This document shows, in pieces, positions 3,580 through 8,094 of a stretch of 36,526 nucleotides of DNA (its first letter is position 1; every line of letters begins with the position of its first letter). A model generated the notes under the pieces. The model was given only the letters and a program-made list of their open reading frames with translations, ran no database searches and was not told the DNA's origin. The position numbers were made by a program, and so were the translations under genes. The stretch comes from Candidatus Aquicultor sp. (GTDB taxonomy: Bacteria > Actinomycetota > Aquicultoria > Aquicultorales > Aquicultoraceae), in the NCBI GenBank assembly GCA_030682615.1, contig JAUXNY010000040.1, positions 1 through 36,526 of the forward strand. Reading direction: 5' to 3'.

Positions 3580-4055
3580 GCGCTGACAAAAAGAAGAAAG
3601 GCGGAGCTACGCTCAGCATTATCTTGATATTGGTATATGCCGTAGTCCTACTTGGCTCGCTTAAATACACCGGCGTAATAAAATTTCCGGCCAAGAAAAA
3701 GACTAATGTTGCGAAGGAAGAAACCGATAAAAAGGATAAGAGTGGGTCGACTACAACGACCACAGCAGCGGGAACCGGATCCGAAACAACGACGACAACG
3801 ACGACGATATTAACGACAACGACGACGTCTGAGGATCCAGCAGCGGGGGAAGACCAAAGTACGGACAAGCTTAAAAGACTGGTGAAGATCTACGAAGCTA
3901 TGGACTCCGGCCAAGCGGCCATTATTATGTCCAAGCTTACCGACAGTGAAGCTGTGTCCATATTAAGCGTGATGGACGAGGAGATAGCCGCCGAAGTGCT
4001 GTCTGCCATGGATACGGATCGCGCTGCCACTCTTAGCAAGAAACTCGGCCTATAG
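3576..4055 (+). CDS. MotE/YlxF-like protein: membrane anchor, Thr-rich linker, MgtE_N-type helical domain
   Basis: 159 residues. One N-terminal transmembrane segment (about residues 11-31, [20 protein letters not shown]) is followed by a Lys-rich stretch, a linker with 18 threonines in 26 residues, and a C-terminal helical repeat ([43 protein letters not shown]). That repeat resembles the MgtE N-terminal domain found in flagellar proteins of the MotE/YlxF type. Known relatives sit between fliJ and fliK in Gram-positive flagellar operons and are linked to stator or assembly functions. The exact role here is inferred. ATG overlaps the previous stop as ATGA. Confidence 0.75.
3750..3827 (+). repeat. 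ACN-triplet low-complexity tract encoding the Thr-rich linker
   Basis: Twenty-six codons, 18 of them threonine (mostly ACG and ACA), arranged as runs of 5, 7 and 5 with short interruptions. The tract lies within the MotE-like gene and joins its membrane anchor to its helical domain. A triplet-rich tract of this kind is likely to vary in length between strains through slippage, always in frame (inference). Confidence 0.85.
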
Positions 4056-6307: not shown

Positions 6308-6697
6308 GTGACAGACAAGATTTTCGTGCACCAGCAACCTATACGGCCGATAGAGCGGATAGAAGGAGATAAAAAGCAGGTCAAAAAGACTGCGGCCACC
6401 CAAGGACCGTCTTTTAAAGACGTTCTGACACAAGAAATCGGCAATGAACTCAAGTTCTCGGCCCATGCTAAGGCCAGGTTGGAAGCGCGAAATATCAAGC
6501 TGACCGAGTCACAGTTAAGCCGGCTTCATACCGGTGTAGACAAGGCGGCGAGCAAAGGCGCGCGTGAGTCGCTCGTGCTCGTCGATGATGTAGCTCTCGT
6601 GGTGAGCATAAAGAACAAAACCGTTATCACAGCGGTCGATGATAAGAACTTGAAGGAAAACGTGTTCACAAACATCGATAGCGCCGTGATTATGTAG
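6308..6697 (+). CDS. Flagellar operon protein of the TIGR02530 (flg_new) family
   Basis: 129 residues starting at GTG, with gaaaggagg upstream. The second half (FSAHAKARLEARNIKLTESQLSRLHTGVDKAASKGARESLVLVDDVALVVSIKNKTVITAV) matches my recollection of TIGR02530, a small cytosolic protein encoded between flgD and flgE in many Gram-positive and deep-branching flagellated bacteria. Its molecular function is not established; a hook-assembly or export-accessory role is a guess from position. No membrane segment or signal peptide is visible. The N-terminal 40 residues are Lys-rich and probably disordered. Confidence 0.85.
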   Translation: MTDKIFVHQQPIRPIERIEGDKKQVKKTAATQGPSFKDVLTQEIGNELKFSAHAKARLEARNIKLTESQLSRLHTGVDKAASKGARESLVLVDDVALVVSIKNKTVITAVDDKNLKENVFTNIDSAVIM

Positions 6698-6706
6698 GTT
6701 ATTTTT

Positions 6707-6805
6707 GAACTGGACCTCTCTGAGGAAGTTCGTAGTCGCCGATTGACAGAGGCGGCTAATCGAGGCCAGTTCACCACGGGCGAGATTATTAAACGACTAC
6801 GGATT
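6707..6805 (+). promoter_or_regulatory. Structured leader upstream of flgE with competing RNA pairings
   Basis: Three helices can be drawn. An outer stem pairs gaactggacctc (6707-6718) with gaggccagttc (6762-6772), with one bulge. Inside it, tagtcgcc (6733-6740) pairs with ggcggcta (6751-6758). Alternatively cgtagtcg (6731-6738) pairs with cgactacg (6794-6801), extendable with wobbles to 6727-6738 with 6794-6805. The last pairing excludes the inner hairpin, crosses the outer stem (a pseudoknot if both form) and ends five bases before the flgE ribosome binding site ggagg (6811-6815). I recognise no known riboswitch class. Function is inferred only from geometry. Confidence 0.5.
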
Positions 6806-6825
6806 ATTTAGGAGGTAGATGCGCT

Positions 6826-8094
6826 ATGATGCGCTCAATGTTTAGTGCAGTATCAGGTTTACGTAACCACCAGGCCCGCATGGATGTCATAGGTAACAAC
6901 ATCGCTAACGTCAACACAGTCGGCTTTAAGTCGAGCCGTGTTACGTTCCAGGATATGGTCTACGAGTTGACCAGAGCGGCAAGTGCCCCATCAGAAGGCC
7001 TCGGCGGCTCTAACGCACATCAGGTCGGACTTGGCATGATGGTCCGCTCTGTCGATACGCTTATGACCCAGGGTTCTCTCGAGTCGACGGGAAAATCAAC
7101 CGACCTGGCCATCCAGGGCGAGGGCTTCTTTGTTCTCGACACCGGGCAGGGTAAGGTATTCAGTAGGGTCGGTGCGTTCGATGTCAACTTGAAGAAAGAC
7201 CTTGTCGACCCCGCGACCGGTTACTATGTCATGGGCTGGGAGGCCGGCAACAACGCGGCGAAACCTGGTGTGATCGACCCGAGCATGAGTCCGACGCATA
7301 TCAATGTTCCGATGGGGCAGTTGATGTTGGCGAAAGGCACTAACAATGTCACTTTTACCGGTAACTTGGACGCGGATGAGGCTACCGGATATGTCGCGAA
7401 CGCAACGGTTCAGGTATACGACAGCCAGGGCACTGCGCATAATCTGACGTTTGCTTTTACTAAGCAGGCTGCAGCAAATACCTGGAACTATGCGATTACG
7501 ACAGTTGCACCGACAGGGATTACCAGCGGCGGCTCGGGAACACTTATATTCAACCCCGACGGCTCAATCGATACCGAGACCGTAATCGACCCTGAAACCT
7601 CGACGATTCCTGCGCTTGTGGTCGCTCCGGGAAACGGTGCCAATCCAGTCAGCGTCACTCTCGACTTCGCACGCTCCATCCAGTTCGCGTCTGATAAGTC
7701 TGACATCCGTGCACAGTACCAAGACGGCTTCCCGATGGGTGTTCTCGAGAACTTCTTCATCGGCGTCGACGGCGTTATTACCGGCACCTTCACCAATGGT
7801 ATGAACCAGGAACTAGGCAGGATTGCGCTGGGTGTCTTCGGAAACCCGGCCGGTCTTTTGAAAGCAGGCGCTAACGCGTTTAAGCAGTCGAATAACTCTG
7901 GTGAGCTTCAATATGGTGTTCCGGCTACCGGTGCTAACGGAACGCTCGTCTCCGGAGCACTCGAGATGTCAAATGTCGACCTCTCACGGGAGTTTACGAA
8001 CATGATCATCACCCAGCGTGGCTTCCAAGCGAACTCGCGAATCATCAGCACTTCTGATGAGATGTTGCAGGAGTTGGTCAATCTTAAGCGGTAG
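6826..8094 (+). CDS. flgE: Flagellar hook protein FlgE
   Basis: 422 residues. FlgE is the subunit of the universal-joint hook and is exported through the flagellar channel. The N-terminal rod/hook signature MFSAVSGLRNHQARMDVIGNNIANVNTVGFKSSRVTFQDM is complete. STDLAIQGEGFFVLDTGQG follows, and the C-terminus has SNVDLSREFTNMIITQRGFQANSRIISTSDEMLQELVNLKR. The start is ATG 6826, ten bases after ggagg; ATG 6829 is a possible alternative. The length is typical of FlgE rather than FlgG. The gene is followed by a strong terminator, so it ends the first flagellar transcript. Confidence 0.96.
   Translation: MMRSMFSAVSGLRNHQARMDVIGNNIANVNTVGFKSSRVTFQDMVYELTRAASAPSEGLGGSNAHQVGLGMMVRSVDTLMTQGSLESTGKSTDLAIQGEGFFVLDTGQGKVFSRVGAFDVNLKKDLVDPATGYYVMGWEAGNNAAKPGVIDPSMSPTHINVPMGQLMLAKGTNNVTFTGNLDADEATGYVANATVQVYDSQGTAHNLTFAFTKQAAANTWNYAITTVAPTGITSGGSGTLIFNPDGSIDTETVIDPETSTIPALVVAPGNGANPVSVTLDFARSIQFASDKSDIRAQYQDGFPMGVLENFFIGVDGVITGTFTNGMNQELGRIALGVFGNPAGLLKAGANAFKQSNNSGELQYGVPATGANGTLVSGALEMSNVDLSREFTNMIITQRGFQANSRIISTSDEMLQELVNLKR

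Follow-up and report, generated by a model that had tools for sequence, protein, structure and literature searches.

Flagellar rod and hook genes in many bacteria are preceded by a compact structured RNA that is almost certainly a real, widespread and apparently undescribed type of leader. It consists of about 51 bases folded into two adjacent hairpins, P1 and P2, and is described here from the leader of the hook gene flgE in Candidatus Aquicultor sp. This RNA family had apparently gone uncatalogued; it stands before hook and rod genes in hundreds of bacteria belonging to several phyla, and it appears to be a control switch for flagellum building.

In the window, the whole stretch of 36,526 nucleotides that was analysed, the element lies between a TIGR02530 gene and flgE (Table 1); the second-best site for the same covariance model reaches 9.9 bits. 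The outer pairs of P1 join GAACU (6707-6711) to AGUUC (6727-6731) and its inner pairs join CCUC (6715-6718) to GAGG (6722-6725), leaving GGA (6712-6714) unpaired in an internal loop opposite A6726. The predicted fold of the leader has a z of -2.2 against shuffled sequences, with 195 of 200 shuffles worse and 5 equally good. An open reading frame of 37 codons, in frame with the TIGR02530 gene, also runs through the TIGR02530-flgE gap; we rejected a coding role because indels break it in relatives. A separate flgE promoter downstream of 6805, which a preliminary description of this leader had named as grounds for giving up its proposed fold, was likewise rejected: the sole plus-strand match in the promoter scan is at 6665-6693, and none starts past 6805.

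Table 1. Features of the flgE leader and its flanking genes (window coordinates)
Feature	Position	Strand	Basis or remark
TIGR02530 (flg_new) gene	6308..6697	+	NCBIfam E 3.4e-35; candidate trans-acting partner
Whole element (P1+P2)	6707..6757	+	Covariance model match, 68 bits, E 1.3e-14
P1 hairpin	6707..6731	+	Covariation over 29 and 77 sequences
P2 hairpin, 10-nt loop GAUUGACAGA (6741-6750)	6734..6757	+	Two-sided stem changes, loop conservation
CCAGUUC, can pair with GAACUGG 6707-6713 (outer stem), competes with P1	6766..6772	+	Lineage-specific
CGACUACG, can pair with CGUAGUCG 6731-6738 (competing helix), competes with P2	6794..6801	+	83% of cells paired
flgE Shine-Dalgarno AGGAGGU	6810..6816	+	AGGAGG = 6810-6815; ATG at 6826
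flgE (hook protein), putative regulated gene	6826..8094	+	FlgEFG hook/rod family E 1.4e-86, above cut-off; top match an FlgE model, under that model's own cut-off

The case for the structure comes from the TIGR02530-flgE gaps of 10 members of the family and of 80 named genomes in Bacillota, Armatimonadota, Actinomycetota and other groups. In the A2 seed, a MAFFT alignment of 29 sequences, 95.6% of cells are paired, and covariation is 0.566 as against 0.244 in shuffled and at most 0.153 in slid alignments. The larger A3 alignment of 77 copies, which is fitted to the model and hence biased towards its own structure in a way that the seed is not, has standard pairs in 95.2% of cells, covariation of 0.588 (0.214 when shuffled) and two-sided changes at 14/16 pairs, including somewhere at each of the 7 pairs of the P2 stem. 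The unpaired bases are conserved as well. A near-invariant GGA faces a single purine in P1 (GG in 77/77, A in 75/77), the P2 loop has the consensus GANYGANNGA, and such conservation of unpaired bases implies specific recognition.

The element is a regulon-wide leader of exported rod and hook genes, found before flgE and flgG and, in some lineages, before flgB-flgC, flgD, flgF and hook paralogs. The window's own genome holds two further copies by model search, one in the flgF/flgG gap (C35:9873-9926) and one upstream of a helix-turn-helix (HTH) gene with flgB-flgC (C133:3887-3931), and the three sites, before flgE, before flgG and upstream of flgB-flgC, recur in Aquicultor-family relatives. The flgB-upstream copy (L139, the window genome's own C133 copy at ~3887-3931 on the minus strand; also L141, L147, L151 and L154) overlaps a small conserved open reading frame ending NQINLPEDSSE..IVFF.AR*; an excisionase-like HTH gene comes next, and then flgB-flgC. 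Among 40 genomes reached via collected loci, 35 carry the element, and all 38 stretches read from that set precede rod or hook genes (flgE, flgG, flgE paralogs, flgF or flgD). The first gap collection was biased by the use of TIGR02530 as query; a sample of 300 genomes from the phylum of Syntrophomonas, chosen independently of TIGR02530, is free of that bias. Here the element occurs in 195/300 genomes, about two thirds, and precedes FlgE/FlgG-family genes in all 60 readable contexts, with one further context at a contig edge. Matches of 25-28 bits in three genomes (G055, G061 and G079) were rejected as lying within G+C-rich coding sequence. Two side observations may be added: in the Negativicutes G109 and G117 (L211, L212, L215, L223) there are several flgE paralogs per genome, each with its own copy of the element, and a contig titled Methanoregulaceae archaeon (L064) carries TIGR02530 and a leader nearly identical to that of a Fimbriimonadaceae contig (L070), probably through mis-binning.

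Where might such an element act? In flgE leaders the median distance from the end of P2 to the Shine-Dalgarno sequence (SD) is 23 nt; in leaders other than the window's, P2 usually lies 20-45 nt from the ATG. A terminator scan, confined to the window leader, found no candidate site from P2 to flgE, where a transcription attenuator would carry its intrinsic terminator. Given this absence and the short stretch up to the SD, we favour control of translation or processing, with the element acting on the mRNA close to the ribosome binding site.

The flgE SDs themselves suggest one route. Across loci L027-L106, the form GGAGG-UC occurs at 28/45 flgE genes and GGAGG-UG, the commonest form at neighbouring genes, at 0/45, as compared with 13/184 and 86/184 at other genes (p 9e-15). 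The UC extends complementarity to GACCUC of P1; in the window GAGGU of the SD (6812-6816) is complementary to ACCUC of P1 (6714-6718), and the two are paired in the minimum free energy (MFE) fold of the leader. In flgE leaders, then, the 5' strand of P1 could pair with the SD, such that P1 folded would leave the SD open and P1 unfolded would close it. In predicted ensembles P1 and P1-SD pairing balance each other, and replacing UC with UG weakens the latter (p 2e-8). Real flgE leaders show no significant difference from chimeras that carry the SDs of other genes (p 0.08), and the P1 strands of flgG leaders are mostly not complementary to their own SD. For these two reasons masking of the SD is at most part of the answer; as a general mechanism, SD sequestration by P1 was rejected, since it applies to many flgE leaders and not to those of flgG. 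One flgG leader (G038, L145) has a candidate expression platform of a separate kind, in which ACCUCCAAGAAUUGGAGGU immediately 3' of P2 masks the SD.

The element would most likely bind a protein, for which TIGR02530 is the best candidate. In the phylum sample TIGR02530 is present in 39/39 element-positive genomes and in 14/80 element-negative ones; of these 14, a direct leader search located the element in 12 (9 at E<=0.002, 3 weak but legible), and the remaining two, G327 and G350, lack it. Flagellar genes are present in 11 of 20 listed element-negative genomes, 7 of the 11 have no TIGR02530, and those 7 gave no element match in the fetched flgE/flgG-family regions. The association has a Fisher p of 6e-7, a value that overstates independence because the genomes share ancestry. 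Nor is the link mere neighbourhood: the TIGR02530 gene sits directly upstream of flgE, a long way from the flgG copy. In G038, which has the flgG copy, no TIGR02530 was found; a contig ends there inside a fliK-like gene adjoining the expected place. Searches for TIGR02530 in an E. coli control genome and for viral copies of it gave no match.

The structure of TIGR02530 offers a lead and no more. Its AlphaFold model has a beta-alpha-alpha-beta-beta-beta core, and the full-length model best matches RelE-superfamily toxins (YafQ/RelE, E ~0.5) and a phage site-specific RNA endonuclease (0.01) in the PDB, matches that a trimmed model did not repeat. DUF4258 is matched below cut-off by 31/77 members (best E 9e-4), and a sequence search of the PDB gave nothing useful. 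The resemblance to RNA-acting folds of the RelE/RegB/DUF4258 type is weak and unreplicated.

Our main reading, to which we give a probability of about 0.5, is that TIGR02530 acts through the P1-P2 element, the best-supported mechanism. Whether through TIGR02530 or another factor, we hold it an even bet, judging from sequence comparison, that the leader is a cis-acting control site for rod and hook synthesis. Binding would set the translation (or processing) of rod and hook subunits to the stage of assembly; such coupling is plausible, as all targets are exported rod or hook proteins. What is observed directly is the structure, the gene context and the conservation across phyla; from these we infer who the partner is and whether regulation is positive or negative. 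A fuller version is more tentative, and we hold it at slightly under even odds. In it TIGR02530 would serve as a dedicated regulator that binds RNA, perhaps derived from an RNase, and would recognise P1-P2 before flgE, flgG and sometimes flgB and flgD; the two would form an unrecognised post-transcriptional module by which many Bacillota, Armatimonadota and deep Actinomycetota time the synthesis of rod and hook.

Could the element instead mark a site of mRNA processing or stability, at which an RNase cut or protection, possibly by TIGR02530 itself, raises the output of FlgE and FlgG over low-copy neighbours in long operons? FlgE and FlgG are the high-copy rod and hook proteins, the elements are located between genes, and the weak RelE/RegB-like matches would suit a nuclease. 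We find this unlikely, however, as the element also precedes flgB-flgC, flgD and flgF, which are low-copy or scaffold genes, its conserved unpaired bases point to specific recognition, and the fold matches are not significant and were not reproduced with the trimmed model.

CsrA presents itself as a partner with precedent. In this scheme CsrA would bind the nearly invariant GGA of P1 together with the GGA of the SD and block translation, and FliW would relieve the block. CsrA is encoded in 46/49 element genomes, and in Campylobacter jejuni flgE mRNA is enriched 68-fold in CsrA co-immunoprecipitation and flaA is repressed through GGA motifs (PMC4894983). The CsrA-controlled flagellin leaders (hag in Bacillus, flaA in Campylobacter; PMC4894983) resemble the present element: they too are structured, lie 5' of a gene for an exported flagellar protein and close to its SD, and contain GGA motifs, and the coupling of synthesis to assembly is probably shared as well. 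The GGA of P1, however, belongs to an internal loop with pairs on either side and not to an apical A-N-GGA-N hexaloop, some P1 loops read GGC or GGU, and P2, an obligate second hairpin that has a consensus of its own, goes unexplained along with its loop. Unlike those leaders, the element has rod and hook genes as its targets and co-occurs with TIGR02530. CsrA control strikes us as improbable. CsrA was not found in the window's genome (G000), whose assembly is perhaps incomplete. It was not found in G008 either, though sister genomes of both have it, and it is perhaps missing from these assemblies.

A small-molecule riboswitch, with a motility signal such as a second messenger as its ligand, would account for the compact, aptamer-like conserved loops, the broad distribution and the alternative SD pairings. 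Riboswitches are expected beside genes that make, transport or use the ligand, and the roughly 100 contexts contain rod and hook genes exclusively, with no transporter, enzyme or messenger gene; the strict co-occurrence with one protein family also speaks against a small ligand. Rfam 15 gave no covariance-model match in the window at gathering score, in the 200-nt leader at E<=5, or in 8 relative loci, which bears out the earlier remark that the fold matches no known riboswitch class and led us to reject membership of a known Rfam family. We consider a riboswitch quite improbable.

The preliminary description had rightly sensed a regulatory RNA in the flgE leader, which proves conserved and far wider than proposed, and had built it from an outer stem, an inner hairpin and a competing match that together might form a pseudoknot. 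All three pairings are present in the sequence: the outer stem joins GAACUGG(A)CCUC (6707-6718) to GAGG-CCAGUUC (6762-6772), the inner hairpin, which is P2, joins UAGUCGCC (6733-6740) to GGCGGCUA (6751-6758), and the competing helix is given in Table 1. The best-conserved helix, the local P1, was absent from that description. The covariation that it had asked for in related gaps is found in the inner hairpin; all 10 Aquicultor-family leaders keep the outer stem paired, with 6/7 pairs that never vary and no two-sided changes, and the competing helix shows few, with G-C replaced by A-U at one pair in 3 family genomes. Both helices lie outside the multi-phylum core, which is P1 and P2, and are probably a local add-on conserved only in the Aquicultor family, in which two extra downstream segments would compete with, and could invade, P1 and P2. 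That a pseudoknot switch of outer stem and competing helix is the main functional unit is very improbable: the family keeps both helices and the SD is closed in the leader MFE, yet P1-P2 persists in the shorter leaders of other phyla that have no such downstream segments, and the outer stem lacks two-sided changes.

We know of no defined RNA element behind the post-transcriptional control of FlgE in Salmonella. That system, in a different phylum, resembles the one proposed here in that the FlgE level responds post-transcriptionally to assembly stage, as the title of the original report states (Bonifield, Yamaguchi, Hughes 2000, cited in PMC4032328). Two structured RNA motifs, flg-Rhizobiales (RF01736) and Termite-flg (RF01729), do take their names from flagellar genes and are listed for Rhizobiales and termite hindgut only (PMC2864571); unlike these, the present element is matched by no Rfam model at gathering score or E<=5. 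Open-access literature yielded nothing on flgE leader RNAs or TIGR02530, and a paper on 224 motifs (PMC5737381) may possibly mention them. Autogenous ribosomal-protein leaders offer a further likeness, being compact structures of protein-binding type that an operon mRNA carries near the SD, although here no ribosomal protein is involved and the element also precedes genes away from that of its candidate regulator, as at flgG.

As a single RNA specific to rod and hook genes travels together with TIGR02530, both the RNA and the orphan protein are directly testable. How the synthesis of hook and rod subunits is matched to flagellar assembly is a long-standing question, and here one compact RNA marks exactly the rod and hook genes and accompanies a conserved uncharacterised protein. 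If the fuller version of our reading is true, TIGR02530 and the P1-P2 leader would constitute an unrecognised module that times rod and hook synthesis.
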